A stretch of 55,973 nucleotides of DNA from Anaerolinea sp. (lineage in GTDB: Bacteria; Chloroflexota; Anaerolineae; Anaerolineales; Villigracilaceae): NCBI GenBank assembly GCA_020049345.1, contig JAIFKY010000120.1, forward strand, positions 1-55,973, read 5' to 3'. Each line of letters opens with the position of its first letter. Position 1 is the first letter of the stretch. Below are positions 27,874-51,813 of the stretch, piece by piece. The translations under genes were made by a program, and so were the position numbers. Below the pieces are notes generated by a model. It worked only from the letters and a program-made list of their open reading frames with translations. It did no database searches and was not told the DNA's origin.

Positions 27874-27885
27874 AAGGAATTTATT

Positions 27886-32016: not shown

Positions 32017-32030
32017 AAGAGAACAACACA

Positions 32031-33749
32031 ATGAAGACATTCCTTGATTTTTTCAGCCCGTCTGTCTTTCCAGATGACGAAGAGAAAACACGCTCTGCGT
32101 ATTATCTTAACGCGATTACGCTTATAAGTATCTTTGTTATTACCTTGCTCCTAGTCCTCCGCTTGGTTTCAGGCACAAATCTTGTATCGACGCCCAACCT
32201 TATCTTTTCAGGAATAATATTCATTTTAATAATTGTTTTTTTTCTGGGAAAAAATGGGCGCATTCTAAGTGCGGGTTATTTAAATATAGCAACGTTGTGG
32301 GTTGCGACCACATTGCTGGCAATTGGAGGAAATGGAACAGCGGGAAATCAGGCAGCAAGATACATTGTTGTCATTGCCTTCGCAGGTTTAATTCTTGGCT
32401 ACCGAGCCGCGTTATGGATTGCATCAATCTCCATTTTTAGCATCTTTGGCACCGTCTATGCCGAATCAATTGGAATCGTACACCAACAGATCGAATCATC
32501 TTTTATCAAGGCAATACAAGCATCAATCCCATTGATTTTAAGTGCTGTATTCATTTACTTGAGTATAAACAGCCTGCAAGCAGCTCTTAAAAAAGTAAAA
32601 ATGGAAGCGCAGGAAGTAGAAAAAAACAACAAAGAGTTGAAGGAACTTCACGAATCGCTTGAAGATATGGTCAAAGAGAGAACCGACAACCTACTGAAAG
32701 CCAATATTGAAAACCAGCGGCGTGCTGCCCAATTCCTAACCGTTGCTCAAATTGCCCAAACCATCGCATCGGAACGCGATCTTAATACTTTATTGTCCAT
32801 CATCACAGATGTCATCAGCGCTCAATTCAACTATTACCATATTGGCATCTACCTGAATGATGACATACAAGAATATACAATCTTAAGCGCCGCCAACAGC
32901 GAAGATGGAAAACATATGATGCAACACGGGCACAAATTGCCTATTGGACAAACAAGCGTTGTAGGATATGTTGCCATGATAGGAAAAGCCCGCAGCACAG
33001 CAGAAGCCGACGATCTGTCATTAAATGACCTCAATCTTCCCGAAACCAAGTCTGAACTTGCATTACCACTTAAGGTTGGAACACAAACCATCGGTGTAAT
33101 TGACATGCAAAGCAAGGAAGAAAATGCTTTTGACCAGACGGATACTGAAGTGTTAACTGCACTCGCAAATCAAGTCACAATCGCCATTCAAAATACACGG
33201 TTATTTGCCGAAACACAAACGGCGCTTGCCGAAAGCCAACTACTCTACGGAACAGTAGTAAAACAGGCCTGGCAGACTAATATACAAACCAACCCACAGG
33301 TCGGATATCGTTACGCGGGCATAAAATCAACTCAACTGGAAAAGGAAATCTCCACGCCTGAAATTCGCGCCGCAATGGAAAATAACGATCTTGCCGTCAC
33401 CCATCCCAGCAGAAGAAAAAGCGAAAACGCGCTGGCGATTCCAATAAAAATGCGCGAGTCAACAATTGGCGTTCTTAATATTAATTTTCCAATAGACGTG
33501 GAATTGGAGGAAGACGAGATAGATATTGCCCGCGCAGCCTCACAGCAAATAGCAATCGCGCTTGAAAACGCATCACTACTCGAGGAGTCGCAACGACGCG
33601 CTAAACGCGAACAAACCATCAGTGAAATATCAACAAAAATAAGTTCGAAAACAGAAATTGAAGCGATCCTAAAAACTGTCATTCGAGAATTGGGAGTTCA
33701 AATTGGCGGCGCCCAGATTACAGTAGAGATGGGGAGCGAGAATGAATAG
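32031..33749 (+). CDS. Receptor P8: multi-TM, coiled coil, divergent GAF, degenerate GAF; no kinase
   Basis: FNYYHIGIYLNDDIQEYTILSAANSEDGKHMMQHGHKLPIGQTSVVGYV; C-terminal REQTISEISTKISSKTEIEAILKTVIRELGVQIGGAQITVEM. Confidence 0.85.
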   Translation: MKTFLDFFSPSVFPDDEEKTRSAYYLNAITLISIFVITLLLVLRLVSGTNLVSTPNLIFSGIIFILIIVFFLGKNGRILSAGYLNIATLWVATTLLAIGGNGTAGNQAARYIVVIAFAGLILGYRAALWIASISIFSIFGTVYAESIGIVHQQIESSFIKAIQASIPLILSAVFIYLSINSLQAALKKVKMEAQEVEKNNKELKELHESLEDMVKERTDNLLKANIENQRRAAQFLTVAQIAQTIASERDLNTLLSIITDVISAQFNYYHIGIYLNDDIQEYTILSAANSEDGKHMMQHGHKLPIGQTSVVGYVAMIGKARSTAEADDLSLNDLNLPETKSELALPLKVGTQTIGVIDMQSKEENAFDQTDTEVLTALANQVTIAIQNTRLFAETQTALAESQLLYGTVVKQAWQTNIQTNPQVGYRYAGIKSTQLEKEISTPEIRAAMENNDLAVTHPSRRKSENALAIPIKMRESTIGVLNINFPIDVELEEDEIDIARAASQQIAIALENASLLEESQRRAKREQTISEISTKISSKTEIEAILKTVIRELGVQIGGAQITVEMGSENE

Positions 33750-36666
33750 ATCGTCAATCCCAAGTGAACGGCACATCCGCAATTCGTATGCCGCAATCAT
33801 CATTTTAATGCTCTCACTTATACCCACAACAGCATTGTTTGGCTATATTGGCTTTGCCAATAGTCAATGGCAGTCGCAGGTTATTACCGGTATATTACTG
33901 GTTGTGTTTTTCATAGACTTTAGTTTAATCTCGCTAATTCGACGCGGAAACTCAAACCTGGCGATGATGATCTTAATGACCAATTTCATTATCGTAGTTC
34001 TTGCAACAACACTGTTTGTAAAAGGACTTGGTTTGGTTATTGCCATTGCAACAATCTTGATCGTTATTTCCGTCAGCAATCTGGCAATGCCGACAAGATA
34101 CGCAATATATGGCGCAGTGATTGCAACATTGGCGGGTTTTGGGTTATTCCTTTTAGATACAACCTATTCTGGAAATCGTCTTACGGCGCCTCAAATCGAA
34201 CTTTACTCGCCATATATTGCCGCATTCCTGGGGTTGGGTTTTATTATTTTAGGGATACGTGAATTCAACAGGTTCAGTTTGCAAGTAAAAGTTGCCTTGG
34301 GCACCCTTGTCACAGGCGGCATAACAGTAGGCGTACTTATAGTATTTGGTCTTAATCGCGCCGGTTTAATTACTACTTATTTATTAGATCAATACAAAAA
34401 CTCAAGCAGTGAAAATATAGAACAACAAATTACAACCAGCGCAGGCAACACAGCCGAACAGACAAACGAATTATTTTCTTTATTGGTCAATGATATTAAT
34501 ATTATGTCCAGTTACAGAGCAAGCCTTGAAGCGCAAAAAGAAACTCTGGGACAAGGCGCATACTGGGATGCAAGCACCAGACTTATGCGGTTACCTGGCA
34601 GTCAATATGGCAATTCAACCTCAGATCCCGCATCCATTTATATTCCCTTCACGGTCAGCATAGACCAAACCGTTCTTGCGGACTTAAACACAACCGCATA
34701 CTTCGACTTCTATGCTTTAAACTATCTCAAAAACCACCCAGATATTGAAGCTGTTTATTTTATTAGCAAAACAGGCGCCACCACCTATTATCCAAACATA
34801 GACCTTGCCAATAACATTCCCTCAGGTTTTGATCCACGCACACAGCCATTCTACACAATATCTGATCCTGCCAACGGAGCAAAACATGAGCCAAGTTGGG
34901 TTAGAGCATACCAAGACCCAGCCGGACAGGGATTAATCGTTACGCTTTCAGCGCCTGTATATTCAAACAACAACTTCTTAGGTGTAATCGGTATTGACAT
35001 TCAACTCCAAAACTTTTTTAAGGCTGGAAATATAAAAATTGGAGAAACCGGATACACATTTTTAGTGGACGGTGTAGGACACATCCTTGCCATGCCCCCA
35101 CAAGGGTATACGCTCTTCGGATTACAACCAGAGGAAGTCTCTATTAATGGCTCACCTGAACAATCAATAGTTGGAAAAGGTTCGCCGGAACTTCAAAATG
35201 CAGTTGCAAAAATGATGATCTTTAGTCACGCCAGCGTTGAAGTTGTTTCAATAAACAATGAAAACGTATATTTTGCCTTTGCGCCGATCTCCACCCCGGG
35301 TTATCGGCTGGGTATCGTAGTCCCCGAAAAGGAATTTACCACTGATGTAGTTACAGCTGAAAACAAAGCGCAAAACCAGATCCAAAACTCGCTGCGCGGA
35401 ATGACCATCATTCTCATCTTCCTCTTTATTGGAGCAGTCGTCATCAGCCTGTTTGTTGGGCAGATCATCACCCGCCCCCTGCTTCGCCTGACACAAACCG
35501 TTGAAACAATCAGCGAAGGCAATCTTACCGTTCGCGCAAACATTAGCGGAGAAGATGAAACGGGCACACTCGCCAAAGCATTTAATACCATGACAGATAG
35601 GTTAAACGAAAACCTGGCTCAACTTGAAGAACGCGTAACTGAACGCACCCAGGAACTGGAAAAAGCGAATGAAAGAAACGTCCGCCGCGCAAATCAATTT
35701 GAAACCGTTGCGCGCGTAGCGCACACCATCAGGTCCACTCAAACACTGGAAAGCCTCCTGCCATTAATCACAGTAGCCATTTCAGAACAATTCGGCTTTT
35801 ACCATGTAGGCATCTTTCTATTGGACACACGCCACGAATATGCAGTATTGACAGCGTCAAACAGCGAAGGTGGACAGAAAATGTTAAAACGGAACCACCG
35901 GCTACTCGTCGGAGGAACTGGCATTGTAGGCTTTGTAACCAAAAGCGGACAACCCCGCGTCGCGCTTAACGTTGGAGAGGATTCTGTTTACTTCAACAAT
36001 TCCGACCTCCCGGAAACCCGCTCTGAAATTGCGCTCCCCCTTCGCATTGGCTCAGAAACATTTGGCGCATTGGATGTGCAAAGCAAACAAACAAACGCAT
36101 TCGCCCAGGAAGACATAAGCATCCTCTCCACCCTGGCAGATCAGGTAGCAGTAGCCATTCAAAATGCGCGATCATATCAACAAACACAGGACGCCCTTGC
36201 CCAGGCTGAAGCCGCATCTGTTCAATTAAGTGGGCAACAGTGGAAACAATTCCTTACACATCAGCATGTACAAGGGTTTTCCTTTGATGGCGTAGAGACA
36301 ACGAACCTTACAACGTCAGATAAACAACGCCCGCACAGCCTTGCAATTCCGCTCACATTGCGCGGAACAAAGATCGGCGCAATCAAACTCAGCGCAGAAA
36401 ACCCAGATCGAATGTGGACTGATGACGAAATTACCATGGTTCAGGCAGCAGCCGAAAGAACATCACTTGCCCTTGAAAGCGCCCGCCTGCTTGAAGAAGC
36501 GCAAAAACGTGCCGCCAAAGAACGCGTTATCGGAGAAATATCAGCCAAAATTGGCAGTTCAAGCAGCCTTGAAAACATATTGCAAACGGCAATTAAAGAA
36601 CTGTCCAACACCCTGCCTGGAACAGACATTGCCATTCAATTCAAGAAAAATCAGGAGACTGAATGA
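33742..36666 (+). CDS. Receptor P9: multi-TM plus dCache-like sensor, HAMP, GAF, degenerate GAF; no kinase
   Basis: Multi-TM N-terminus followed by a second TM-extracellular-TM unit (GETGYTFLVDGVGHILAMP), HAMP ITRPLLRLTQTVETISEGNLTVRANISGEDETGTLAKAFNTMTDRL, GAF FGFYHVGIFLLDTRHEYAVLTASNSEGGQKML. Confidence 0.87.
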   Translation: MNRSSIPSERHIRNSYAAIIILMLSLIPTTALFGYIGFANSQWQSQVITGILLVVFFIDFSLISLIRRGNSNLAMMILMTNFIIVVLATTLFVKGLGLVIAIATILIVISVSNLAMPTRYAIYGAVIATLAGFGLFLLDTTYSGNRLTAPQIELYSPYIAAFLGLGFIILGIREFNRFSLQVKVALGTLVTGGITVGVLIVFGLNRAGLITTYLLDQYKNSSSENIEQQITTSAGNTAEQTNELFSLLVNDINIMSSYRASLEAQKETLGQGAYWDASTRLMRLPGSQYGNSTSDPASIYIPFTVSIDQTVLADLNTTAYFDFYALNYLKNHPDIEAVYFISKTGATTYYPNIDLANNIPSGFDPRTQPFYTISDPANGAKHEPSWVRAYQDPAGQGLIVTLSAPVYSNNNFLGVIGIDIQLQNFFKAGNIKIGETGYTFLVDGVGHILAMPPQGYTLFGLQPEEVSINGSPEQSIVGKGSPELQNAVAKMMIFSHASVEVVSINNENVYFAFAPISTPGYRLGIVVPEKEFTTDVVTAENKAQNQIQNSLRGMTIILIFLFIGAVVISLFVGQIITRPLLRLTQTVETISEGNLTVRANISGEDETGTLAKAFNTMTDRLNENLAQLEERVTERTQELEKANERNVRRANQFETVARVAHTIRSTQTLESLLPLITVAISEQFGFYHVGIFLLDTRHEYAVLTASNSEGGQKMLKRNHRLLVGGTGIVGFVTKSGQPRVALNVGEDSVYFNNSDLPETRSEIALPLRIGSETFGALDVQSKQTNAFAQEDISILSTLADQVAVAIQNARSYQQTQDALAQAEAASVQLSGQQWKQFLTHQHVQGFSFDGVETTNLTTSDKQRPHSLAIPLTLRGTKIGAIKLSAENPDRMWTDDEITMVQAAAERTSLALESARLLEEAQKRAAKERVIGEISAKIGSSSSLENILQTAIKELSNTLPGTDIAIQFKKNQETE

Positions 36667-38408
36667 TCAAAAGATTATTTAGCCCGCCGCTTTTTGATAC
36701 TGAAGAAGATAATTTTCGCGCGAAGTTCATTAGTGGCTTTGCCTGGACTCTCATTTTGTTATTACTATTTAGCTTAATTCCTGTCCTAGGTCCAAATGCA
36801 GACGTAAACGCCAACACTACAATTATTTTTATTGTAAGTGTCATCCTTGTTTGCTTTACTTCGCTTTACATATTACGAAAAGGCAACCTAAACGCAAGCG
36901 GATTAATCCTGGTAATCCTCTGCTGGGTGGGGTTTGGACTGCAAGCATATACAGCGGATGGAGTCAGAGACATAATTATAGTTGCGTACATTGCAATCAG
37001 TTTGCTTGCCAGTATTGTTATTAACTGGCGCGCAGGCAGTATTGTCATGGTTCTCAGTATTGGAGCAATCTGGGGTTTTGCGATACTCGAAACAAACGGA
37101 TTTCTACACCCCCGCTTTCAAGAACCAATTACGTTTTCACGCGATCTCTCTTTTGTTTTTGCGGCAATCGCAGTATTAATCTATTTCAGCACAACCAGTT
37201 TACGAGATGCAACCACCCGCGCAAAAACAAGCAAACAAGAACTGCTTGTTTCAAATAAGAATCTGCAAGAACTTAACCAAACATTGGAAGAACGCGTAAA
37301 CCAACGCACAACTGAATTAGACAGCGCAAACCGCCATAACTTACAACGCGCCCGCCAATTTGAAGCAATTTCGCAGGTTGTACGCGCAATTTCATCCATT
37401 CAGGATTTGGAAATACTCCTCCCTCGAATTACAAAAGTGATCAGTGAACAATTCAATATTTACCATACAGGTATTTTTTTATTGGATGACAACCGCGAAT
37501 TTGCAATCTTGCGCGCCTCAAACAGCGATGGCGGCAAAAAAATGCTGGCGCGTGAACACAAGTTACCCGTCGGACAGACCGGTATTGTTGGCTATGTAAC
37601 AGCAACCGGACAACCCCGCATTGCTCTTGATGCAGGAGCAGATGCTGTATTCTTTAATAATCAAGACCTGCCAAATACCCACTCGGAAATTGCACTGCCT
37701 TTACGCTACGCCGGCACACTCCTCGGCGCGCTTGATGTGCAAAGTGTTGAATCAAACGCATTTGATCAGAATGACGTTGAAATTTTAACCATCCTGGCTG
37801 ATCAGGTCGCGGCAGCGATAACAAACACCCTGACTCTTGAAGAAGCCCGAAAAACTCTGGCTAAATTCCAAGGCTCATTAGACAATAAGACCCAGGAATC
37901 ATGGAAAGTCATGAGATCAAAGTCATTGGGATTAGGCTTTCAAATAATTGGTTCCGCCATCAAGCCGTTGGATGCTCCGCTGACCGGCAAACATATTCAA
38001 CAAGCGCTTGCACAAAACAAAATAGTCTTATCTGATAAAGAAGATGCCACAACCTCAAGTATTGCAATCCCCATCCGCCTGCGGGGACAAGCCGTTGGCG
38101 TTATAAACTTGCGTACCAACAATAAGTATAAACTAACAGAAGATGATACTGAGATAGTAGAGGCTGTTACAGAACGTCTTTCACTTGCCATTGAAACAGC
38201 CACATTGCTCCAAGCCACTCAACATCGAGCGGATATTGAGCGACTTACAACCGATATTTCTTCAAAGATCAGTTCCTCCACTCACTTTGAAACCATCCTG
38301 CAAACAGCCGCACAGGAACTTAGCAAGGCGCTCGGCGGCTCAGACGTGTTGGTACAGATTGAACCAGTTTCCATTGAATCTGACCGCAAAGATAAATACG
38401 GGTATTAA
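36663..38408 (+). CDS. Receptor P10: multi-TM, coiled coil, GAF, degenerate GAF; no kinase
   Basis: FNIYHTGIFLLDDNREFAILRASNSDGGKKMLAREHKLPVGQTGIVGYV...NNQDLPNTHSEIALPL; ATGA overlap with P9. Confidence 0.86.
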   Translation: MIKRLFSPPLFDTEEDNFRAKFISGFAWTLILLLLFSLIPVLGPNADVNANTTIIFIVSVILVCFTSLYILRKGNLNASGLILVILCWVGFGLQAYTADGVRDIIIVAYIAISLLASIVINWRAGSIVMVLSIGAIWGFAILETNGFLHPRFQEPITFSRDLSFVFAAIAVLIYFSTTSLRDATTRAKTSKQELLVSNKNLQELNQTLEERVNQRTTELDSANRHNLQRARQFEAISQVVRAISSIQDLEILLPRITKVISEQFNIYHTGIFLLDDNREFAILRASNSDGGKKMLAREHKLPVGQTGIVGYVTATGQPRIALDAGADAVFFNNQDLPNTHSEIALPLRYAGTLLGALDVQSVESNAFDQNDVEILTILADQVAAAITNTLTLEEARKTLAKFQGSLDNKTQESWKVMRSKSLGLGFQIIGSAIKPLDAPLTGKHIQQALAQNKIVLSDKEDATTSSIAIPIRLRGQAVGVINLRTNNKYKLTEDDTEIVEAVTERLSLAIETATLLQATQHRADIERLTTDISSKISSSTHFETILQTAAQELSKALGGSDVLVQIEPVSIESDRKDKYGY

Positions 38409-38413
38409 TCAAA

Positions 38414-39382
38414 ATGAAAAGAAATCTATTAATAAAAATTACCAATTTAATTCTACTCCTACCCGTTTTGGCGGCATGTGCCACATTACAAGTCACACCG
38501 ATCCCCAATCCGCCACTGCGAATTGAATTCACACAATGGTGGGGAGACTATACCCTGCTGGTAGCACAGGACAAGGGTTTTTTTGAAGAGCATGAGGTAC
38601 GGGTAGAGCCCAGATACTATAAGACTCTTGCCAACACCTACCCAGATTTAGCCTCTGGACAAATTGACGGAGCGTTGATAGCAATCGGAGATGCGATCAA
38701 TATCAACCGTAGCACCCCCATAAAAGTGGTGGCCGTCAGTGACAATGGAGGCGACGATGCCGTTGTCGTTGGATCAGAAATTAATTCCATACAAGACCTG
38801 AAAGGCAAAACAATCGGCTTGGAGATAGGTTCACAATTTGAGTTAACCATCTTCCAAATGTTGCAAAGCGCAGACATGGATTTTAACGACGTTACTCTCG
38901 TCTCAATGAACCCTGAAGACACGCTGGCCGCCCTTGAAGGTGGTCAGGTTCAAGCAGTTAATACCTGGGAGCCCTATTTATCAAATGCGCTTGCAAAGGG
39001 ATACAAAAGCATTTATCCGCAGGAACAACTTCACCTATTTCCAGACTTAATTGTATTTCGCAAATCAATTGTAGATGAAAGACCCGAAGATGTTCGCGCA
39101 TTCCTGCAAGCATGGTTTCAAGCAGTTGAATACCGCCAACAACATCAGGGAGAAACACGTGTCATTGCCGCCAAGTATTTGGGCGTAAGCGCAGATGAAG
39201 TACAGCCCGACAACAATCTAAAAATCCACACACTGGAAGACAATAAATTATTATTCAATGTGCAAAAAGCAAATTCCATTTATTCCATCGCAAAAGTTAC
39301 ATCCGATTATTTAATTTCCATTGGAGTAATCACAAAAGCCATCGATCCGCTTGAATTGCTTGATTCGATTTATTTGCCATAG
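38414..39382 (+). CDS. ABC-type substrate-binding lipoprotein, NMT1/SsuA-like
   Basis: Lipobox LPVLAAC; FTQWWGDYTLLVAQDKGFFEEHEVRVEPRYY, IQDLKGKTIGLEIGSQFELTIFQMLQ, GGQVQAVNTWEPYLSNAL. Confidence 0.88.
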   Translation: MKRNLLIKITNLILLLPVLAACATLQVTPIPNPPLRIEFTQWWGDYTLLVAQDKGFFEEHEVRVEPRYYKTLANTYPDLASGQIDGALIAIGDAININRSTPIKVVAVSDNGGDDAVVVGSEINSIQDLKGKTIGLEIGSQFELTIFQMLQSADMDFNDVTLVSMNPEDTLAALEGGQVQAVNTWEPYLSNALAKGYKSIYPQEQLHLFPDLIVFRKSIVDERPEDVRAFLQAWFQAVEYRQQHQGETRVIAAKYLGVSADEVQPDNNLKIHTLEDNKLLFNVQKANSIYSIAKVTSDYLISIGVITKAIDPLELLDSIYLP

Positions 39383-39417
39383 TCATTTACGTCAATAATG
39401 CCAAGAGAGTCTCTCTA

Positions 39418-42246
39418 ATGAACAACACATCCGCCCAACCCACGCCACAAGAAAAGCATCGTAAAGAAAATGCGCTTGCGATCAGTTTGATCACCGGCAT
39501 TCTATTTACGATTGTTTCAATAATTGTTGGACCGATTGCCTATAGCGAAAATAAAGAAGCTGGTTTATGGGGCATCGTGCTTATGGTGGTAGTCTCCATA
39601 GCGGCATTTATTAGCGCATATCAAATATCTCGCAATCGTGTTCTGCCAGGGATAGGAAATCTCATCATAACCATACTGGTGATGTCGCTTGCGCTCCCTA
39701 TTGTGGCGCACGGACAAGGGCTTGCGCTTGGTGTCATGATCCTTGTTTTTATTGCAAGTATTTCTTTAGCCACCCTGCCAAACGTGTGGGCAACACGCGC
39801 AATCATTAGCGCTTTTGTGATCGCAATCATCATCACCCTTACCGATCTATATCTTCCTGATTTTGGACTGCCCACCAAGCCCAGTTACACCAACCTGATT
39901 GCCATTATCGTGTCTTTCGTATATATTATTTTCATCCTAAGGCAGTTCAAGACATACGCACTGCGCACCAAGATTGTTATTGCCTTCATACTTATCACCA
40001 TCATTCCTTTGATTGCATTAAGCATAATCAACAGCAGGTCATCCAGCGCAACCCTTGAAACACAAAGCAAAGATCAACTGACAACCTTGTCCGAAATAGT
40101 AGCGGATAAAATTGACGGGTTTATAACAACCCAGCTTAATTCAGCGCACACAGACGCAAAGCAATTATCGCTTGTCTCTTACCTGCAATTGCCCCCTGAA
40201 TTACGCAACGGCAGCAAAGAAGAAATAGACGCCCGTGTCACCCTTTTATCTTTAACGCGCAAAGACCCTGTATTTATCAACTCAATTGCCATTCTCGATC
40301 TGAGTGGAAAAAATATTCTGGACACCGTCAACAAATACAAAGATCAATACGAAGGCTCGTTCGCTTATTTTCGCCCGCTTCAAACAGGATTACCCTACGC
40401 ATCCAATGTTCTTTTCCGCGACGACAAAGCAAATATTTATTTCACCGCCCCGATTAAAACTCAGGAAGGAAAAGCGCTTGGCTTACTGCGAATAGAATAT
40501 CACGCAACGGTTATCCAATCCCTTATTCGTTCCATAAATCCAGGCAATACAGAAACCATTATTGCGCTTGTAGATACGAACACATACATGCGGGTAGGGT
40601 ACACGGGAGACCGTGACGCGCTTTTTACATCATACAAGAATTTTACAGATTTGGAATTAACCACCTTACAGGCAGTGGGACGCCTCCCCTCAGCCACCCG
40701 AGAAAACGCCCTGAAGAATGTTAACGATGAAACAGTTGCCGGCTTGGACAACCTGCAACAACAGCCATTCTTTAACGCAAAATCCAACTCGCCTGTTTCA
40801 GAAACAATTAATACGGGTGTATTTCTAAAAACGCAACCGTGGGTTGCAATGGTGAGCCAGTCCACCGATGTATATCTTGTGCCTGTCAAAGAACAAAACA
40901 AAGCCAATACACTGATTGCGGTATTAGTGCTTATTTTTAGTATTATCGCTGGGTTTATAGCATCACAAATTCTAACATCCCCGCTCACAGCCCTTACAAA
41001 TGCAGCCGAAAAAATCACATCCGGCGATCTTAATGCGCGGGCACAGATAACCACAGAAGATGAAATCGGCGCATTGGCAGTCACATTTAATCGCATGACC
41101 GAACAACTCAACCAAACACTCACAGGGCTGGAACAACGCGTAGCAGAGCGCACAACAGACCTCGAACTATCGCGTCAGCAAAGTATAAAACGCGCCAACG
41201 AACTTCAATCAATTGGTGAAATTTCAAAAATTATTACCGGCGAACAAAAATTTGAGAGCCTGCTGCCGCTGATCACCCGCCTTGTGAGCGAACGTTTCAA
41301 CTTCTATCACACAGGAATTTTTCTGCTTGACAGCACAAACCGGTTCGCAGTATTGCAAGCCGCAAACAGTACCGGCGGAAAAAATATGTTGCAACGCGGA
41401 CACAAACTTGAAGTCGGTGAAAGCGGAATTGTGGGATACGTCGCGCAAACTGGAACACCCCGCATCTCACTCGACGTTGGGCAGGATGCTGTTTTCTTCA
41501 ACAATCCCGACCTTCCAAACACACGTTCTGAAATGGCGCTGCCCCTCAAAGTACGCGACCAAATTGTAGGCGTATTGGATGTTCAAAGCGAAAGACCCGG
41601 CGCATTCACTGAAAACGACACAAACACACTCAGTATTTTAGCTGACCAAATTGCAATCGCCCTGGAAAATGCGCGGCTGTTCACGCAAACAGAGCAGGCA
41701 TTAAGTGAAGCACAGGCGCTCTATCGTCAAAATTTACAGGAAGGCTGGAAAACCTTTAGCCGCGAAAAAGAAATTGTCGGCTATCATCAAAGTTTGACAA
41801 GCGGAAAAAAGCTAACTCAACTTGTTGAGACAGATGAAATCAGGCAAGTCATCAATCGCAGAGAATCATTAATCTTTCATGCGGATGGCGTCACACAGGA
41901 AGCATCCATCATTGTGCCGATCAAACTGCGTGGACAAATCATCGGCACGATGAAAATTAATGCGCCCGATAAAAATCGTTCATGGTCATCTGATGAAATC
42001 AATCTTACCGAAGCGATCTCTGAGCGTCTTTCAATTGCGCTTGAAAATTCGCGCCTAATCGAAGAGTCTCAACGTCAAGCTATTAAAGAGCAGACCATTA
42101 GTGAAGTCACCGGCAAGATCGGCGCTTCCATCAACCTGAAAAATGTTTTACAAACCGCAGTGGAAGAACTGGGACGCGCCCTGCCGGGGTCTGAAGTGAT
42201 CATTAAGTTTGAACAAAAGAACGCGAATGCGGAGCCTCAATCATGA
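39418..42246 (+). CDS. Receptor P11: multi-TM plus dCache-like sensor, HAMP, GAF, degenerate GAF; no kinase
   Basis: Multi-TM N-terminus, second extracellular sensor, HAMP LTSPLTALTNAAEKITSGDLNARAQITTEDEIGALAVTFNRMTEQL, GAF FNFYHTGIFLLDSTNRFAVLQAANSTGGKNMLQRGHKLEVGESGIVGYV. Confidence 0.87.
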   Translation: MNNTSAQPTPQEKHRKENALAISLITGILFTIVSIIVGPIAYSENKEAGLWGIVLMVVVSIAAFISAYQISRNRVLPGIGNLIITILVMSLALPIVAHGQGLALGVMILVFIASISLATLPNVWATRAIISAFVIAIIITLTDLYLPDFGLPTKPSYTNLIAIIVSFVYIIFILRQFKTYALRTKIVIAFILITIIPLIALSIINSRSSSATLETQSKDQLTTLSEIVADKIDGFITTQLNSAHTDAKQLSLVSYLQLPPELRNGSKEEIDARVTLLSLTRKDPVFINSIAILDLSGKNILDTVNKYKDQYEGSFAYFRPLQTGLPYASNVLFRDDKANIYFTAPIKTQEGKALGLLRIEYHATVIQSLIRSINPGNTETIIALVDTNTYMRVGYTGDRDALFTSYKNFTDLELTTLQAVGRLPSATRENALKNVNDETVAGLDNLQQQPFFNAKSNSPVSETINTGVFLKTQPWVAMVSQSTDVYLVPVKEQNKANTLIAVLVLIFSIIAGFIASQILTSPLTALTNAAEKITSGDLNARAQITTEDEIGALAVTFNRMTEQLNQTLTGLEQRVAERTTDLELSRQQSIKRANELQSIGEISKIITGEQKFESLLPLITRLVSERFNFYHTGIFLLDSTNRFAVLQAANSTGGKNMLQRGHKLEVGESGIVGYVAQTGTPRISLDVGQDAVFFNNPDLPNTRSEMALPLKVRDQIVGVLDVQSERPGAFTENDTNTLSILADQIAIALENARLFTQTEQALSEAQALYRQNLQEGWKTFSREKEIVGYHQSLTSGKKLTQLVETDEIRQVINRRESLIFHADGVTQEASIIVPIKLRGQIIGTMKINAPDKNRSWSSDEINLTEAISERLSIALENSRLIEESQRQAIKEQTISEVTGKIGASINLKNVLQTAVEELGRALPGSEVIIKFEQKNANAEPQS

Positions 42247-45029
42247 CCACCTCTTATTCTGACGCATTGATCTTCCAAAATACTGAAAAAGAACAACATC
42301 AGCGCATTGCGCTGGTCATTACAAACATCCTTCTCATAACCGGCGGGCTGATTTCTTTTGCCATTCTATCAATTGCCATAATAACAAAAAGTTGGCATAT
42401 ATTTGTCCTCTATGGCGGCAATTTACTATTCTTAGCGCTAAATTATTTGGGCTTGAAGCAAATCAAGCAAAATCACATTACCACCGGCGCAATCATAACT
42501 TCAGGTTCCATACAATTAACCATAGCGCTTCTTCCCCTTCTATTTACAGACGTTGGAAGCCTGGTTGGTTTGTTTAGCATCCTGACAGCCTCTCTGATAA
42601 TCCACCAAACCGTGGATTTAAAAAACTTCCGTAAAATAATTCCATACAACATCATTATCGGATTGCTAACGATCCTGCTTATTTATCTGCCAACGTCATT
42701 CCGAATAGCCATACCTACCATATTAATTATCACAATTGCCATAATAGCCGTTTTTGAAATAATGATTTTAATTGTAGTTATGTGGCTGCAATTCAAAACT
42801 TTTACGATCCAAACAAAATTAATCGTCGCATTCATAAGTCTGCTAGTCATATCATTAATCACCACCGGCGGCTACAACATCACCACCAATTACCGTATCC
42901 AACGCGCGCAAATATCTACAAACCTTGAAAGTGAAACAAACGCAAAAAGCGCGGCAATCGTTGACTTTCTTATTGCTGCCAGACAGGATGCGGTTTTTCT
43001 TGGTCAGGCTGAGGTTTTACAAAACTACATAAAAACTCTGGGAGATATTTCCAATCCAAACATTGTGATCCGAGCGCGCACCGTTGTGGAACGTGAGTTT
43101 CGCCGCTTTGCCGAAAACAGAGAAGTCTACGAACAAGTACGGTTTTTAGACAACGATGGGAATGAAGTCATCCGCATAGACACCACTCAAGACGGAGTAT
43201 CATCCATTGTGCCCCAATCAGAGTTACGCAAAAGCGAAACTCTAAACGTCATGGGCGAGTTAAATTATTTCAAGCAAAGTAATATATTATCCTCAGGAGA
43301 AATTTTCGAGTCGCCGCTTAAATTAAATATAGACAATAACAACCAGATTATATTTCCATACGAACCAATCATTCAGTATGGCACGCCATTGGTTATTAAC
43401 ACCCAAACAAAAGGCGTAATCCTTATTAATGTGTACGCCGAAAATTTCCTAAAAATATTATCGGCATCAGGCTCAAATACCTTCCTTGTTGATACAAATG
43501 GATATTATCTTTTTCACCCCGACGAAACCAAACGTTGGGGTAGAGACCTCAAAACCGGAATAACCATTGGGCAAGATTTCCCCGATCTCGTCAACGACCT
43601 TTACAGTGGAAAACCTGGAAACCGCGAAGTTAACGGCTACCTCATTACCTACGCGCCCATAATCATGCCGGGCGAAGATGCGCCGCGTTGGTACATTGGA
43701 ACTTTCGTTGATCTGGATTCGATCTCCAGACCTATTTTCACATCAACGTTTAATTCATTAACCTTATTGTTGCTGACAATGGGCATTTCCATTTTTATGA
43801 TGACCTATCTAAGCAGTTCAATCACCACCCCGCTTGGAAATCTATCAACTGCCGCGAGAAATATTACCGCCGGAAATCTGTCTGCCCGCGTTAATGTCGA
43901 AACACAAGATGAAATCGGCGCTCTGGCAGAAGCATTTAATATTATGAGCAGCCAGTTACAAGAATTGGTCGCCAGCCTCGAAAGCCGCGTTTCAGAACGC
44001 ACAGCAGAACTGGAAACAGAAAAACAACAATCAGATGCGCGCGCCAAACAATTTGAGGCAGTTACAAAAGTAGCGGGCGCCATCAGCGCCACCAAGAATT
44101 TACCGGAATTACTTCCGCAGATAACCAAGGTAATCAGTGAACAGTTCGGTTTTTATCATGTTGGAATTTTCCTGAACGATCCAGCCAATCAAATTGCAAT
44201 ACTCCGCGCCGCAAACAGCGAAGGCGGAAAGAAAATGATCCAACGTAATCACCAACTCAAAATCGGCGAACAAGGCATCGTGGGGCATGTCGCCAAAACT
44301 GGAAAACCACGCATTGCGCTTGACGTGGGCGAAGATGCAAACTATTTCGATAACCCAGAATTACCATCAACACATTCAGAAATGGCGCTGCCGCTTAAGG
44401 TAGAAAATCGGGTTATCGGCGCATTGGATATTCAAAGCACTGAAATAGGCGCGTTCACAGATGAAGACTTTGAAACCCTTTCCGCGCTGGCTGATCAAGT
44501 CAGCCTTGCAATTCAAAATGCGCGTTTATTTGATCAAATAAAAAACACTCTTTCAGAATCCGAGGCTATTCAACGGCAATACATTCGCGAAACCTGGGAA
44601 CACCTGCCCAAAGAGGAAAAAATAAGTGGTTTCCGATCTTCCAACGCAGGCGCAGTTTTGTTGAATGAAGAGGCAATAGATGCTTCAGACAAACGGGAAA
44701 TTAGCGTACCCATTATCCTGCGCGGCGAAACCATCGGTACGCTTTCAGTATTGGTACCTGCCAGCCAGCGCGAAAACACAGATCAAGATGATTTAATCAA
44801 AGCAGTGGCAGACCGTATCGCGCTATCTGCCGAAAACGCCCGCCTCTTTGAAGAAACAACCCGCCGCGCCACACGCGAACATCTTGTATCAGACATTACC
44901 ACAAAAATCCGCAGTACCAACGATCCACAGGAAATGATCAATACCGCCATGCAGGAATTGCGGCGCGCACTAGGCGCCACGCGCGTTGAAATTGTCCCGC
45001 AAAAAATTGCGCCTCCACCAGATAAATAG
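42243..45029 (+). CDS. Receptor P12: multi-TM plus dCache-like sensor, HAMP, GAF, degenerate GAF; no kinase
   Basis: Multi-TM N-terminus, extracellular sensor with GSNTFLVDTNGYYLFHPDE, HAMP ITTPLGNLSTAARNITAGNLSARVNVETQDEIGALAEAFNIMSSQL, GAF FGFYHVGIFLNDPANQIAILRAANSEGGKKMIQRNHQLKIGEQGIVGHV; ATGA overlap with P11. Confidence 0.87.
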   Translation: MTTSYSDALIFQNTEKEQHQRIALVITNILLITGGLISFAILSIAIITKSWHIFVLYGGNLLFLALNYLGLKQIKQNHITTGAIITSGSIQLTIALLPLLFTDVGSLVGLFSILTASLIIHQTVDLKNFRKIIPYNIIIGLLTILLIYLPTSFRIAIPTILIITIAIIAVFEIMILIVVMWLQFKTFTIQTKLIVAFISLLVISLITTGGYNITTNYRIQRAQISTNLESETNAKSAAIVDFLIAARQDAVFLGQAEVLQNYIKTLGDISNPNIVIRARTVVEREFRRFAENREVYEQVRFLDNDGNEVIRIDTTQDGVSSIVPQSELRKSETLNVMGELNYFKQSNILSSGEIFESPLKLNIDNNNQIIFPYEPIIQYGTPLVINTQTKGVILINVYAENFLKILSASGSNTFLVDTNGYYLFHPDETKRWGRDLKTGITIGQDFPDLVNDLYSGKPGNREVNGYLITYAPIIMPGEDAPRWYIGTFVDLDSISRPIFTSTFNSLTLLLLTMGISIFMMTYLSSSITTPLGNLSTAARNITAGNLSARVNVETQDEIGALAEAFNIMSSQLQELVASLESRVSERTAELETEKQQSDARAKQFEAVTKVAGAISATKNLPELLPQITKVISEQFGFYHVGIFLNDPANQIAILRAANSEGGKKMIQRNHQLKIGEQGIVGHVAKTGKPRIALDVGEDANYFDNPELPSTHSEMALPLKVENRVIGALDIQSTEIGAFTDEDFETLSALADQVSLAIQNARLFDQIKNTLSESEAIQRQYIRETWEHLPKEEKISGFRSSNAGAVLLNEEAIDASDKREISVPIILRGETIGTLSVLVPASQRENTDQDDLIKAVADRIALSAENARLFEETTRRATREHLVSDITTKIRSTNDPQEMINTAMQELRRALGATRVEIVPQKIAPPPDK

Positions 45030-45051
45030 ATTGGAAAAAGAGAAGGTAACC

Positions 45052-45840
45052 GTGATAAAAATAATTGCAGTATCCAACGAAAAAGGCGGCGTAGCAAAAA
45101 CCACAACCACCATCTCCCTTGGCGGCGCCCTTGTTGATCTGGGGTATCGTGTCCTGCTCATTGACCTTGACGCGCAAGCCAACCTAACGCTTGCACTTGG
45201 GTTTGAGCCGGGAGAATCTGAAAATACATCCAGCAATATTATGCTTGATAATGCTCCGCTATTAAGCGCGCGGCGAAAAACTGAAGTCGAAAACCTTGAC
45301 CTCATCCCGTCCAATTCACGCATAGAAACATCCGAGCAATTCCTGCCGGTACGCACAAACTACACCACCATCCTGCAGCGCGCCATTGCAAACGCAACAG
45401 AAATGTCATACGATTACATACTTCTTGACTGTCCTCCCGCGCTTGGCGCAATTACACAAAATGCACTCACTGCGGCAGACCTTCTTCTCATCCCTACGCA
45501 AGCGGAATACTTCTCGGCATACGCGCTACGCAACATGATGACGCTTGTACGCCGCATTCGCGAAGAAGACAACCCAAACCTGGCATACCGCATCCTTGTC
45601 ACAATGCTGGATAATAGAAACCGCACACACCGCAACATTCACGATCAACTTCGCACAACTTTTGGCGAAGGCGTGTTTAATTCAGTCATAGAAATAGACA
45701 CAAAATTACGCGAAAGTTCCATCGCTGGTTTGCCCATTTCACATTACAAACCTGGCGCGCGCGGCACCACGCAATACCACATACTCGCTCAGGAGTTAAT
45801 TGAATATGTCAAAGAAACCAAAAATAAACAAACGGCTTGA
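45052..45840 (+). CDS. ParA/MinD-family ATPase (orphan, no ParB gene adjacent)
   Basis: Deviant Walker A SNEKGGVAKTTTTISLGGAL, VLLIDLDAQANLTLALG, YILLDCPPALGAITQNAL. GTG 45052 behind AGAAGG preferred over the ORF-track start 44986. Confidence 0.92.
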   Translation: MIKIIAVSNEKGGVAKTTTTISLGGALVDLGYRVLLIDLDAQANLTLALGFEPGESENTSSNIMLDNAPLLSARRKTEVENLDLIPSNSRIETSEQFLPVRTNYTTILQRAIANATEMSYDYILLDCPPALGAITQNALTAADLLLIPTQAEYFSAYALRNMMTLVRRIREEDNPNLAYRILVTMLDNRNRTHRNIHDQLRTTFGEGVFNSVIEIDTKLRESSIAGLPISHYKPGARGTTQYHILAQELIEYVKETKNKQTA

Positions 45841-48800
45841 CAAGTTATTCAAGGACATTACTCCTGAAGAGAGCGATTCATCAAAGCCAAGGGAGCACAT
45901 AAAGTCTTCAACAGAGCCGATTCAGCCAGCGGAATCTTTGAGCGCCTCAAGCTCGCACCCGACACCTGTACAGAAAAAAGCTGATGCATCTCCCTCCCCC
46001 AAACCGATCAAACATCACACATCAGTACTGGTACCTCCTGAACCGGTCATCACACAAGATACCGAAAATTCCACGCAAGCCTATGCCGTAAATATTCAAA
46101 CCGGCTATCAAGACTGGGCAACACTGCGCGTCATTGATGAGACAAATCAACGTGAATGGACTCCAGATGAAGAACTGCTTGTAAAACAGGTATCCGACCA
46201 ATTATCACTGGCTCTTGAAAACGCGCGTTTGTTTCAAGAAGCACAGGAACGTGCCGAAGAGCTTTCCCTCATCAACCGCGTCGTCAGCACATTAACCGAT
46301 GCAACCAACTTACAGACAGCCCTCCAGGCTGTCGTTCAAGAAATTGTTGAAGCGTTCCCTGTCACCCGTGGCGCAATTGCCCTTCTGGATGAAAACAAAC
46401 AAAACTTTAGCGTAATCGCCGAGCACTCAAAGAAAAAAGGTGACGCCAGCGCCATTGGACTCAAAATTCCACTGCAAGGAAACCTTGCAACTGAAACTGT
46501 AATTTCAACCCGAAAACCTTATATTCTGGATGATGCGTCAAACAACCCAGCCAACCCGCCCATCGTTCAAGCAGAATTCCGCCGGCTGGGAATTATTCAT
46601 GCTGTTATTTTCCCTATTATTATTAACGATCTAGTGATCGGAACACTAGGCGTGGATATGCTCGAAGGAGACACGCGACTTACTTCAAGCCAAATTGACC
46701 TGCTGGAAACAACCCTGCCTCCGATCTCAGCCGCCATCAGCCGTCTGCGCGCCGAAGAAGCGCTGGCAAGATCCGAAACAGATTTACGCACCCTATTTTC
46801 ATCCATGGAAGACGTTGTGTTGGTTGTTGATAAAGACGGGCGTTACGTACGCATCGCCCCCACAAACCCATCACGCCTTGTACGCCCACCGGAAGAATTA
46901 GTGGGGCAACTCATGCACGATGTGCTGCCAAAAGAAACAGCGGATCGTTTTGTTTCTGCCATTCAACAAACGTTAAATGGAACTGAAACGGTGAAATTGG
47001 AATACGACCTGCCTGTTGGAAATGAAACCTACTGGTTCCTGGCAAACCTTTCCAAACTTGATGAAGGCAATGTGTTCTGGGTGGCGCGTGACATCACCGA
47101 GCGAAAAAGATCAGAAGAGGCAATCAGACGCCGCAACGAATATCTCGCTGTTTCTGCCGAAATTGGAAAACTGGTCACGTCCACACTGGACCTAAACTCG
47201 ATCTTTGCGCGAACTGTAAATCTGATCAACGAAAGGTTTCACTTTTATCACGCCGGCATATTTATTGTAGAAGAAACCGGCTTTAACGCCACCTTGCGCG
47301 AAGCAACTGGTGAAGCCGGCGCAGAAATGAAAGAGAGAAAGCACACGCTTCAGGTTAACGAAAAATCTATCGTAGGCAAAGTGACACTGGACGGGCAATC
47401 CGTAATCGTAAATGACGTCATGGCAGATCCTTTGCATAAATTTAACCCATTACTGCCCGAGACACGCGCAGAAGCCGCAATTCCTCTAAAAATTGGAAAC
47501 CGCGTTATTGGCGCAATTGATATTCAGTCAAAAACTGCCGGCTCATTTACAGAAGATGAAATCATCGTACTGCAAACACTTGCAGACCAGGTGGCGGTTG
47601 CCATTGATAATGCGCGATCCTTTGAACTCTCTCAACAAGCCGTAATGGAAATGCGCGAAATCGATCGTCTAAAAAGCCAGTTCCTGGCAAACATGAGCCA
47701 TGAATTACGCACTCCTCTCAATTCGATTATTGGCTTCTCACGCGTAATCATAAAAGGAATTGACGGCCCTGTCACAGAACTGCAACAACAAGACCTGACC
47801 GCCATCTACAATTCAGGTCAACACCTGCTTGGACTTATCAATGACGTTCTCGATCTCTCGAAGATTGAAGCAGGCAAGATGGAACTAGCCTTCGACGAAG
47901 TGAATATCGCCGACATAACCAGCAGCGTCCTCTCCACCATGAGCGGACTTATTAAAGACAAGCCGATTCAGATGAAGCGCATCATCGAGCCAAACCTGCC
48001 AACAGCCCGCGCAGACGCGATCCGCATCCGTCAGGTCATGATCAACCTGCTCTCCAACGCCTCCAAATTTACAGACGAAGGCGATATCCTTGTGGAAGTT
48101 GGACTCAAGGCTGGACTCACTGGGCGCAATGAATTGAGAGTGAGCGTGACCGACACCGGACCTGGTATCGCCAAACAAGATCAAACAAAACTCTTTCAAG
48201 CCTTCTCGCAAGTGGATGACTCGCCGACCCGCAAAACGGGCGGCACAGGTCTTGGTCTCTCCATTTGTCAACACATCATTAACATGCACGGGGGCAGAAT
48301 TTGGGTCGAAAGTGATCTTGGCAAGGGAAGCACATTCCACTTCACCTTGCCGCTCTTCCGCAAGGAAAAAGAAAATGAATCCGCCTCCGGCTCCAATAAA
48401 GTCATCCTTGCAATTGATGACGACCCTCAGGTTATTGGGTTATACGAACGTTATCTGCAACCACAAGGGTATCAAGTTATCCCATTATCGGACCCAACAC
48501 ACGCAGTTGAACGCGTAAAACAAATAAAACCCTTTGCTGTAACATTAGACATTATGATGCCCGGCATTGACGGCTGGCAAGTTCTGGATAGTTTGAAGGG
48601 CGACCCTGACACTCGCAACTACCCTGTTATCATCTGTAGCATCGTTGAAGACTTGGAAAAAGGATTCAACCTTGGGGCAACAGACTACCTGGTAAAACCC
48701 ATTCTGGAAGATGATCTTGTCAACGCCCTGGATCGACTAAACGCAGACGGATCAATCCGCGATGTGCTTGTCGTGGATGATAATCCCGACGACCTGCGCC

Positions 48801-49150
48801 TGATCGGAAAAATTTTGACCGACGATGGCAGATACAAAGCCACGCTTGCTGAAGGCGGACGCATTGGGTGGGACATCATCTCCTCAGGCAAACCACCACA
48901 CGCTGTCATCCTGGACCTTTTCATGCCTGAAATAGATGGCTTTAAGATATTAGAGAACATGCAGGCATCTCAAACCCTGCGCGAGATTCCCGTAATTGTC
49001 ATTAGCGGCATGGATCTTTCAGCAGAACAAAAAGATCAATTAAATGAATTCGGTCAACGGCTGTTGTTATCAAAAAGTTCTTTCAACGAAAAAGAATTAC
49101 TTACATCCATTCAGCGTTCACTTGAACGGGTTCATACAAAGAATAAATAG
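45806..49150 (+). CDS. Soluble hybrid histidine kinase: half-GAF, GAF, PAS, GAF, HisKA, HATPase, REC, REC
   Basis: HisKA FLANMSHELRTPLNSIIGFS; HATPase MINLLSNASKFT, DTGPGIAKQDQTKLFQAFSQVD, GGTGLGLSICQHI; receivers VILAIDDDPQV...LDIMMPGIDG...VKP and VLVVDDNPDD...LDLFMPEIDG. No TM segment seen. ATG 45806 behind AGGAG preferred over TTG 45800. Confidence 0.93.
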   Translation: MSKKPKINKRLDKLFKDITPEESDSSKPREHIKSSTEPIQPAESLSASSSHPTPVQKKADASPSPKPIKHHTSVLVPPEPVITQDTENSTQAYAVNIQTGYQDWATLRVIDETNQREWTPDEELLVKQVSDQLSLALENARLFQEAQERAEELSLINRVVSTLTDATNLQTALQAVVQEIVEAFPVTRGAIALLDENKQNFSVIAEHSKKKGDASAIGLKIPLQGNLATETVISTRKPYILDDASNNPANPPIVQAEFRRLGIIHAVIFPIIINDLVIGTLGVDMLEGDTRLTSSQIDLLETTLPPISAAISRLRAEEALARSETDLRTLFSSMEDVVLVVDKDGRYVRIAPTNPSRLVRPPEELVGQLMHDVLPKETADRFVSAIQQTLNGTETVKLEYDLPVGNETYWFLANLSKLDEGNVFWVARDITERKRSEEAIRRRNEYLAVSAEIGKLVTSTLDLNSIFARTVNLINERFHFYHAGIFIVEETGFNATLREATGEAGAEMKERKHTLQVNEKSIVGKVTLDGQSVIVNDVMADPLHKFNPLLPETRAEAAIPLKIGNRVIGAIDIQSKTAGSFTEDEIIVLQTLADQVAVAIDNARSFELSQQAVMEMREIDRLKSQFLANMSHELRTPLNSIIGFSRVIIKGIDGPVTELQQQDLTAIYNSGQHLLGLINDVLDLSKIEAGKMELAFDEVNIADITSSVLSTMSGLIKDKPIQMKRIIEPNLPTARADAIRIRQVMINLLSNASKFTDEGDILVEVGLKAGLTGRNELRVSVTDTGPGIAKQDQTKLFQAFSQVDDSPTRKTGGTGLGLSICQHIINMHGGRIWVESDLGKGSTFHFTLPLFRKEKENESASGSNKVILAIDDDPQVIGLYERYLQPQGYQVIPLSDPTHAVERVKQIKPFAVTLDIMMPGIDGWQVLDSLKGDPDTRNYPVIICSIVEDLEKGFNLGATDYLVKPILEDDLVNALDRLNADGSIRDVLVVDDNPDDLRLIGKILTDDGRYKATLAEGGRIGWDIISSGKPPHAVILDLFMPEIDGFKILENMQASQTLREIPVIVISGMDLSAEQKDQLNEFGQRLLLSKSSFNEKELLTSIQRSLERVHTKNK

Positions 49151-49170: not shown

Positions 49171-50823
49171 GTGTCATTTATCATCAAATGTATTGATTGT
49201 GGGCATAATGCGCCGTACTACCCCACATCCACCACATGCCCAAAGTGCAACAGCCAGTGGCGTGAAGCGGAGTACGACTACGAAATCATTGCGAAAACCC
49301 TGCCAGCCAAACTGGTAAGCCGCCCCTTTGATCTTTGGCGTTATCGCGAATTATTACCCGTGCGTAACCCAAATATTAGTTTATCGCTGGGTGAAGGAGG
49401 AACGCCGCTCATTCGCGCAGTAAACCTCGGCATGATGCTGGGCTGCCCCAACATCTACATCAAAGACGAACGACAAGGTCCCACATCCTCATTCAAAGAC
49501 AGGCAGGCCTCAGTGACCATTGCCGCACTAAAAGAAGCGGGGATCACAGAAATGGTTGCGGCATCCACGGGCAATGTGGCAATCTCCTACTCGGCGTACG
49601 CATCCCGCGCCGGGATGAAACTGTGGGCTTTCGTCACCAGCCTTGTGCCTGCGATGAAAATGCGTGAAATCGCATTGTATGGAAGTCAGGTGATCAAAAT
49701 CACCGGCTCCTACGACCAATGCAAAAAAGTTGCCGCCGAATTTGCCCATCAGCGCCATTTATATCAAGACATGGGCGCGCGCACAATCACTTCAATTGAA
49801 GCAATGAAGACAATTGCATTTGAAATTGCAGAACAACTAACCGCCATTCAAGGACCCGATACAAACGCGCCCTGGCGCACACCCGATTGGTATGTGCAAG
49901 CCATTAGCGGCGGCATGGGACCCATTGGCGTTTACAAAGGCTTCCGTGAGATGAAACAAATGGGATGGGTTGAGCGCATACCTGCATTCGCGCCCATTCA
50001 AGCCGAAGGTTGCGCCCCCATGGTGGATAGTTGGAAAAAAGGATTGGAAAAAGCAGAGCCGGTAACCTCTCCCAAGACCCGCATCGAAACACTTGCCACA
50101 GGCGACCCTGGCCGCTCCTATGAATTCCTGCGGGAATATGTAAACAGCACGCATGGCGCCTTTGAAAGCGTTAGTGATGAAGACGCATTTCGCGCCATGC
50201 ACGTCCTGGCAAAAATGGAAGGCATCTCAGCCGAACCCGCCGCCGCAGTAGCCTTCGCCGGTCTATTCAAGTTAATTCGCGCAGGCATCATTAAACCAAG
50301 CGATACGGTTGTCGTGAATTGCACAGGGCACACCATGCCGGCTGAAGCAGGCGTTCTTGGCGATAATTGGTCTCGTGACGTAAAAATTACCACCAGTGAA
50401 GAAACCCCACAGGAAGGTTTACTCTCAGCGCTCAGGCAGGTTGCGCCAGAACGCTTCCCCAAGATTGCCATTGTCGAAGACACCACCGAGGCGCGCCGCC
50501 TCATCCGCCGTATTCTGCAATCACAGGGTAGTTTCACCATTTTAGAAGCAAGCAACGGACGCGAAGGACTCGAGTTAATTCAACGTGAACTGCCAGACCT
50601 GGTCATCCTGGATTTAATGATGCCGGAAATGGACGGATTTACAGTAATCGAAGCATTGCGCGCAAAACCCGAAACAGCCACCATCCCTGTAATTGTCGCA
50701 ACGGCAAAAGAACTTACAACCGACGAAAAAAGCAGACTCAACGGACAGATTCAATCGCTCATGCAAAAAGGCGACTTTCTTAACGACGAATTCCTTGAAG
50801 AAGTTAAAGCATTAATAAAATAA
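49171..50823 (+). CDS. Threonine synthase with C-terminal receiver (REC) domain fusion
   Basis: Zn-ribbon IKCIDCGHNAPYYPTSTTCPKCNS; PLP-enzyme GPTSSFKDRQASVTIAALKEAG, AASTGNVAISYSAYASRAGM, ISGGMGPIGVYKGF, CTGHTMP; C-terminus KIAIVEDTTEARRLIRRIL...DLVILDLMMPEMDGF...IVATAKE...QKGDF. Confidence 0.93.
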   Translation: MSFIIKCIDCGHNAPYYPTSTTCPKCNSQWREAEYDYEIIAKTLPAKLVSRPFDLWRYRELLPVRNPNISLSLGEGGTPLIRAVNLGMMLGCPNIYIKDERQGPTSSFKDRQASVTIAALKEAGITEMVAASTGNVAISYSAYASRAGMKLWAFVTSLVPAMKMREIALYGSQVIKITGSYDQCKKVAAEFAHQRHLYQDMGARTITSIEAMKTIAFEIAEQLTAIQGPDTNAPWRTPDWYVQAISGGMGPIGVYKGFREMKQMGWVERIPAFAPIQAEGCAPMVDSWKKGLEKAEPVTSPKTRIETLATGDPGRSYEFLREYVNSTHGAFESVSDEDAFRAMHVLAKMEGISAEPAAAVAFAGLFKLIRAGIIKPSDTVVVNCTGHTMPAEAGVLGDNWSRDVKITTSEETPQEGLLSALRQVAPERFPKIAIVEDTTEARRLIRRILQSQGSFTILEASNGREGLELIQRELPDLVILDLMMPEMDGFTVIEALRAKPETATIPVIVATAKELTTDEKSRLNGQIQSLMQKGDFLNDEFLEEVKALIK

Positions 50824-50865
50824 CCTGCCCTCCCCTTCCTTTTATTGATTTTAAAGGTGGTATCT

Positions 50866-51813
50866 TTGCAAAAAAAACAAACGGCTGGAATTCTTGCAGC
50901 ATTCAGTTCAGCGGTATTTCTCGGGTTTGCGCCTGTTTTCGGGAAATTAGCAATCACGCTGGGATTCACGCCGTTTGCGGTTGTAGCGTTGCGTACCGGT
51001 TTCGCCGCAGGTATTCTCCTGTTGGCAATTGCAATATTCTATCCACAGTATCTTTACATTTTTCCGGTAGGCTTGGTTGGGTGCGCTCTTGCAGGCGCAA
51101 TCAATGGCTTCGGCTCCCTCTTGTACTATCTGGCATTGCAAAGGCTTGATGCCAGCGTCGGTCAATTACTTTATTCACTTTACCCATTCTTCGTCGCACT
51201 CTGGTTAATTCTCGACCATCAACCTCCAAGCCGTCTCACTCTCTTTCGCGTGGGGCTGGCCACAATTGCAGTCCTACTCCTCACAAGCGTCCCAAAAAAT
51301 TCAGTAGACCTAACTGGCGTGCTGATGATGATCGGAGCGGCGGTTTTATACGCCATGCACCTGCCCATCAATCAACGTGTGCTTTACGAAGTCCCTGCGC
51401 CAACCGTAGCCCTTTACACGCTACTCTCCATGAGCGCAGTTGTCATCCCCGCATATTTGCTGTTTGACCGCGCCTGGCCGCTACACAATGTCCCTTGGTG
51501 GCCAGTGGCAGGGCTAACCTTCGTAACCATTTTTTCAAGGATCGCGCTTTTTTTGGGCGTAAAAAAGATCGGCGGAATGCAAACAGCATTATTAGGACTC
51601 GCCGAACTTTTGATTGCGATCATCTTTAGCCACATCTGGCTTGGCGAAAACCTGACTCTGCTCCAATGGCTGGGCGCAGCGGGACTCGGCTTTAGCCTGA
51701 TCCTGGTTATGTTCGAAGATGCAGCGGCTCCGACACATAGCGGAAGAACCGGCTGGCTCTCATGGATTCGCGCGCCCGGTTTGCCAAAGGACATCTTTGG
51801 TCCCTACGAATAA
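50866..51813 (+). CDS. EamA/DMT-family transporter
   Basis: About ten TM segments; GFAPVFGKLAITLGFTPFAVVALR; C-terminal AELLIAIIFSHIWLGENLTLLQWLGAAGLGFSLILV. TTG 50866 behind AAAGGTGG preferred. Confidence 0.85.
   Translation: MQKKQTAGILAAFSSAVFLGFAPVFGKLAITLGFTPFAVVALRTGFAAGILLLAIAIFYPQYLYIFPVGLVGCALAGAINGFGSLLYYLALQRLDASVGQLLYSLYPFFVALWLILDHQPPSRLTLFRVGLATIAVLLLTSVPKNSVDLTGVLMMIGAAVLYAMHLPINQRVLYEVPAPTVALYTLLSMSAVVIPAYLLFDRAWPLHNVPWWPVAGLTFVTIFSRIALFLGVKKIGGMQTALLGLAELLIAIIFSHIWLGENLTLLQWLGAAGLGFSLILVMFEDAAAPTHSGRTGWLSWIRAPGLPKDIFGPYE

Follow-up and report, generated by a model that had tools for sequence, protein, structure and literature searches.

A threonine-synthase-like PLP enzyme fused to a phospho-receiver domain and encoded beside histidine kinases in Chloroflexota

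Our analysis identifies a gene family, here called PALP-REC, in which a PLP enzyme of the threonine synthase (ThrC) superfamily continues in one open frame into a C-terminal receiver domain. Judged by sequence comparison, the fusion is old and spread across Chloroflexota. It was followed up from a 55,973-nucleotide contig of Anaerolinea sp. (JAIFKY010000120.1, assembly GCA_020049345.1), the whole of which is referred to as the window. The reading that we favour, at a probability of roughly 0.6, is that PALP-REC is a two-component response regulator with a PLP enzyme as its output, phosphorylated at Asp481 by the adjacent kinase, its activity being set in this way. The usual output of a two-component system is a module for DNA binding, cyclic dinucleotides or protein-protein contacts. 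The features of the locus are given in Table 1.

Table 1. The PALP-REC locus: positions in the window, with residue numbers of the window protein
Feature	Position	Strand	Basis or remark
Roughly 12 GAF receptor genes lacking a recognised kinase domain, with dCache, MASE11, HAMP or some other sensory part	16553..45029	+	same direction as kinase
ParA/MinD-type ATPase	44986..45840	+	conserved between GAF array and kinase in Anaerolineales loci
Soluble hybrid histidine kinase, GAF-PAS-GAF-HisKA-HATPase-REC-REC, putative phosphodonor	45800..49150	+	Pfam; adjacency
PALP-REC fusion gene	49171..50823	+	550 aa, GTG start; uninterrupted frame; full-length orthologues in 130/149 family genomes
N-terminal four-Cys ribbon (probable zinc), C7-x2-C10 ... 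C23-x2-C26	49171..49275	+	Cys in ~100% of 79 fusions
Fold-type II PLP domain, ThrC-like (Pfam PALP, residues 72-386)	49384..50328	+	Pfam and AlphaFold fold match
Lys109 codon, predicted PLP Schiff-base lysine (PTxSFKDRQA; window PTSSFKDRQA)	49495..49497	+	aligned with T. thermophilus ThrC Lys61; invariant among fusions
Linker, residues 391-430, with short conserved helix (EGLxxAL, 415-421)	50341..50460	+	pLDDT and conservation
Receiver (REC) domain, residues 431-550	50461..50820	+	Pfam Response_reg; conserved E/D436, D437, D481, T/S511, K533
Asp481 codon, predicted phospho-acceptor	50611..50613	+	invariant in 79/79 fusions
EamA gene (drug/metabolite transporter superfamily)	50845..51813	+	21 nt downstream of PALP-REC

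A first-pass annotation made from the sequence alone had described a single uninterrupted ORF with a Zn-ribbon, a PLP domain and a receiver from about residue 431, beginning 20 nt after the stop of a hybrid kinase, and this anatomy is confirmed throughout. All 550 codons are open from the GTG start, the kinase ORF ends at 49150, 20 nt ahead of PALP-REC, and the four ribbon Cys are in place. The window protein contains exactly two Pfam domains, both complete: PALP on residues 72-386 (216.8 bits, cut-off 35) and Response_reg on residues 432-530 (72.2 bits, cut-off 30.2). Every residue expected of a response regulator is present, namely the acid pair E436/D437, the phospho-acceptor Asp481 at the codon that had been proposed, T511 and K533. 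For the enzyme half, the PALP fold is indicated by the Pfam score, by the invariant Lys109 and STGN motif, and by matches to solved structures. An AlphaFold model built from a 40-row alignment (mean pLDDT 80.7) finds its best PDB matches among threonine synthases (TM about 0.8-0.85 by target), the nearest being ThrC of M. tuberculosis, A. aeolicus, T. thermophilus and B. subtilis. The linker is poorly ordered in this model (pLDDT <50 over 388-415, with a short helix at 417-422); since it is predicted to be flexible, coupling between receiver and enzyme is not visible in the monomer.

Could the fusion be an assembly artefact, or a read-through joining two genes? The window assembly is fragmented and 79% complete, which might invite the suspicion, but more than 200 independent genomes carry full-length open fusions, some of them single-contig, which argues against two separate genes and refutes the idea. 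The fusion is full-length and free of internal stops in 130 of the 149 genomes of the same family (81 of the 88 good-quality ones). Among 249 genomes sampled from the class, 81 have matches, a handful of them partial and lying at contig ends. Outside the class, other Chloroflexota classes included, the fusion turned up in one genome (G394) and in six members of another genus; G482, among these outside genomes, consists of 3 contigs (6.8 Mb). Many genomes hold two fusion paralogues, and the genome of the window has a second full-length one with 49% identity on another contig (C227). Variants with two C-terminal receivers (PALP-REC-REC) were seen at four loci (L147, L149, L143 and L144). Open frames of 826-1784 aa that in some genomes seemed to encode a single-chain kinase-PALP-REC were rejected, their N-terminal parts looking like an out-of-frame reading of the overlapping kinase gene.

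Alignment of 79 distinct fusions shows no or almost no variation at the ribbon Cys, at Lys109, at S132-T133-G134-N135, in the loop S246-G-G-x-G-P251 (with variants GG[M/L/I]GP) and at His387. On the receiver side E/D436, D437 and D481 are kept in all 79, and T/S511 and K533 in all 77 rows that reach that far, two rows lacking the receiver end. A set of 40 fusion sequences gives the same pattern, and all 40 score for both PALP and Response_reg. Because the PLP-binding and receiver residues are invariant or nearly so in these 79 fusions, both halves are under selection. Searches at E<=1e-68, run without a positive control, gave no match in sampled genomes of Planctomycetota (200; phylum of locus L052), Rokuibacteriota (95; L068), the phylum of the Cohnella locus L062 (299) and Acidobacteria (199; L095). 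The Cyanobacteriota sample (phylum of L056) yielded solely unfused members of the PALP clade, and plasmids and phages nothing beyond low-identity, partial-length matches.

The name threonine synthase, which the first-pass annotation had given to the enzyme half, does not stand. According to NCBIfam the window protein falls short of NF006050 (265 bits, cut-off 303) and of TIGR00260 (162 bits, cut-off 167.1), with other threonine-synthase families far below; some fusion paralogues exceed the TIGR00260 cut-off. In complete genomes canonical thrC is a different gene, which scores about 290-325 bits for TIGR00260 where the fusions reach about 155-188, and the window's own assembly has a 228-aa thrC-like fragment at a contig end (L180). 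With ThrC (TIGR00260, NF006050) the fusions share the PALP fold, the PLP lysine in SFKDR, the STGN motif and the His in TGH; in Thermus numbering, Lys61, Ser84-Asn87 (STGN), Lys116, Glu162 and His319 are kept. They differ from it, besides the scores and the C-terminal receiver, in an altered PLP-phosphate loop and in other active-site residues: Ser155, Arg160, Gln164 and the GNAGN loop, all invariant in the canonical set, are replaced. We take Ser155, Arg160 and Asn188 to be contacts of the substrate phosphate; if they do bind it, the fusions are unlikely to act on O-phosphohomoserine. The glycine-rich loop that is new in the fusions looks more like the loops of serine/threonine dehydratases, which we regard as a hint only.

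A quickly built, midpoint-rooted tree, which drew a long-branch warning from the program, joins the fusions with four unfused proteins from cyanobacteria in a single clade (SH-aLRT 100); canonical ThrC (16 rows, support 100) and other ThrC-like paralogues fall outside it. These comparisons place the fusion in a clade of its own within the ThrC superfamily, and PALP-REC is probably not the ordinary threonine synthase of the cell. That it is nonetheless a genuine threonine synthase which a two-component system controls, as the best family matches, the closest solved structures and the retained Thermus residues could be taken to indicate, is highly improbable in view of the separate thrC in the same genomes, the score of the window protein under all threonine-synthase cut-offs, the replaced S155, R160 and GNAGN loop, and the separate clade. 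A related beta-elimination or replacement reaction, also raised in the first-pass annotation, is a better guess than threonine synthesis. The same superfamily fold is found in cysteate synthase (TIGR03844; CapA2, PDB 9k3c; TM 0.74 by target), an enzyme that, unlike PALP-REC, has no receiver; PALP-REC reaches 116 bits for TIGR03844 against a cut-off of 325.

The four unfused cyanobacterial proteins (L197-L200), one in each of 4 of the 195 genomes of the Cyanobacteriota sample, share 47-50% identity and the FKDRQ and SGGMGP signatures with PALP-REC, from which they differ in lacking the receiver and in having no recognised two-component genes beside them. In two genomes (G714 and G782) the unfused protein stands beside two higher-scoring ThrC genes each. 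In the tree all four branch inside the fusions, a placement that points to loss of the receiver or to acquisition in receiver-less form. A cyanobacterial ThrC with both threonine synthase and deaminase activity has been described, as have three ThrC types, including ThrC3, in Planktothrix (PMC12172450).

Linkage to two-component genes was counted at 34 representative loci, which are less than 82% identical to each other. A kinase or receiver ORF ends less than 150 nt upstream on the same strand in 28 of the 34, and at 207 and 234 nt in two more; two loci (L049, L159) have a REC-histidine kinase gene just downstream and one (L147) a receiver gene downstream. Counting either side, 33 of the 34 representatives have a kinase or receiver gene adjacent, as expected of a response regulator linked to a histidine kinase; the L137/L154 lineage is the sole representative of the 34 that has neither. 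The second paralogue of the window genome lies 4 nt behind a kinase, and since this kinase is receiver-less, the fused receiver offers it a ready target. Distance matrices are well correlated (r=0.89 between REC and histidine kinase, r=0.93 between PALP and REC), which says just that the parts were not shuffled, as common descent alone could give such values. Taken together, the proposal that the adjacent kinase tunes threonine synthesis keeps its first half, kinase-receiver coupling being well supported by adjacency across the phylum and by the receiver residues, and loses threonine synthesis.

The Anaerolineales loci run from the GAF-receptor array through ParA, the GAF-HK-REC-REC kinase and PALP-REC to EamA, and the array is present in all nine genomes examined (9/9). 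In the window two CheY-like receivers precede the array (15768-45029 with these included), then ParA and one hybrid kinase follow; it looks as if many receptors share one kinase. One GAF receptor (window 20467-22110) repeats FDNPLLPYTRSQI or nearly so, and far upstream a protein (window 3986-5092) ends in FVDMLAGEMLPRIC twice; both are short in-frame tandem duplications, and each may be real or an assembly error. Inside the array lies a gene for a lipoprotein-like SsuA-family substrate-binding protein (window 38414-39382; 160 bits, cut-off 163.5); it recurs in one other array alone (L219), so a sulfonate link was rejected as not being a conserved part. On the minus strand, facing the operon, an OmpR-type response regulator and two histidine kinase genes occupy window 51861-55956; the regulator and its REC-histidine kinase neighbour recur in several relatives.

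The conserved array and ParA, together with the flexible linker, raise the thought that the receiver is a mere docking or assembly tag, for example one that places the enzyme on the receptor array or on ParA, with no catalytic switch. We consider this distinctly improbable, given that the phosphorylation residues are conserved and that the fusion persists at loci which have no array or ParA.

Downstream of PALP-REC, EamA follows in 19 of the 34 representatives, in some after a REC-histidine kinase gene, and at many loci a stand-alone CheY-like receiver or a REC-histidine kinase gene comes just after the fusion. These receiver and REC-histidine kinase genes could be the real output if the PALP half were a ligand sensor, a bound amino acid gating (de)phosphorylation of the receiver and the protein serving as a metabolite-sensitive phosphate sink or as a feedback arm of the kinase. 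Allosteric effector sites are possible in ThrC-fold enzymes, as with S-adenosylmethionine in Arabidopsis ThrC (PMC3174156), and the canonical active-site residues are changed. We hold a sensor to be unlikely, though it is the main rival: the sampled fusions retain the PLP lysine and the cofactor-binding motifs, as expected of an enzyme, and the unfused cyanobacterial members, which have no receiver, keep the same motifs. In two distant lineages an unfused ThrC-like gene adjoins PALP-REC (L118:12487-13677, of NF006050 type with 585 bits, and L144:5014-6549), and the two enzymes may work together.

The response-regulator reading would proceed as follows. The adjacent histidine kinase, which in Anaerolineales the GAF receptor array probably feeds, would pass a phosphoryl group, possibly via its own receivers, to Asp481 of the fused receiver. 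Through the linker, the phosphorylated receiver would then change the activity or the oligomeric state of the fold-type II PLP enzyme. Most likely this enzyme catalyses a beta/gamma-elimination or replacement and its amino-acid substrate is not O-phosphohomoserine, and the neighbouring EamA transporter may move its substrate or product. In having a receiver with an intact phosphorylation site on an enzyme, encoded beside a histidine kinase, PALP-REC resembles the response regulators with enzymatic output (CheB, GGDEF, HD-GYP). Counting against an output enzyme are the few close relatives in Cyanobacteriota that have no receiver, the L137/L154 lineage with no neighbouring kinase, and the flexible linker.

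The fusion had been called unusual, a fair description that needs one correction, as receivers fused to metabolic enzymes are a recognised trend, with KaiC, a glycosyltransferase, thioredoxin reductase and pyruvate phosphate dikinase as published partners; those of archaea are described as staying, for the most part, within a single family or genus (PMC5847659). PALP-REC departs from these in carrying a ThrC-superfamily PLP enzyme, in the C-terminal place of its receiver and in its phylum-wide distribution. A literature search found no description of a REC-ThrC or REC-PALP fusion; the two main bacterial response-regulator classifications lay outside that search and may mention one. The fusion is thus of a known kind, and PALP-REC is notable for its breadth, age and enzyme class.

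A first consequence is that Chloroflexota genes which would be annotated as threonine synthase may be something else. A second is that, with a PLP enzyme of amino-acid type joined to a receiver for so long that the pair has spread through a phylum and duplicated there, the direct control of small-molecule chemistry by a phosphorelay becomes testable. The boldest version of the response-regulator reading is doubtful. It holds that, throughout the phylum, a phosphorelay fed by sensors acts straight on the PLP enzyme, and that this enzyme forms or breaks down a compound resembling an amino acid, with EamA as the transporter of that compound. If it is true, the output of a two-component system would be a small amino-acid-type metabolite or signal, and neither transcription nor cyclic nucleotides would be what changes.
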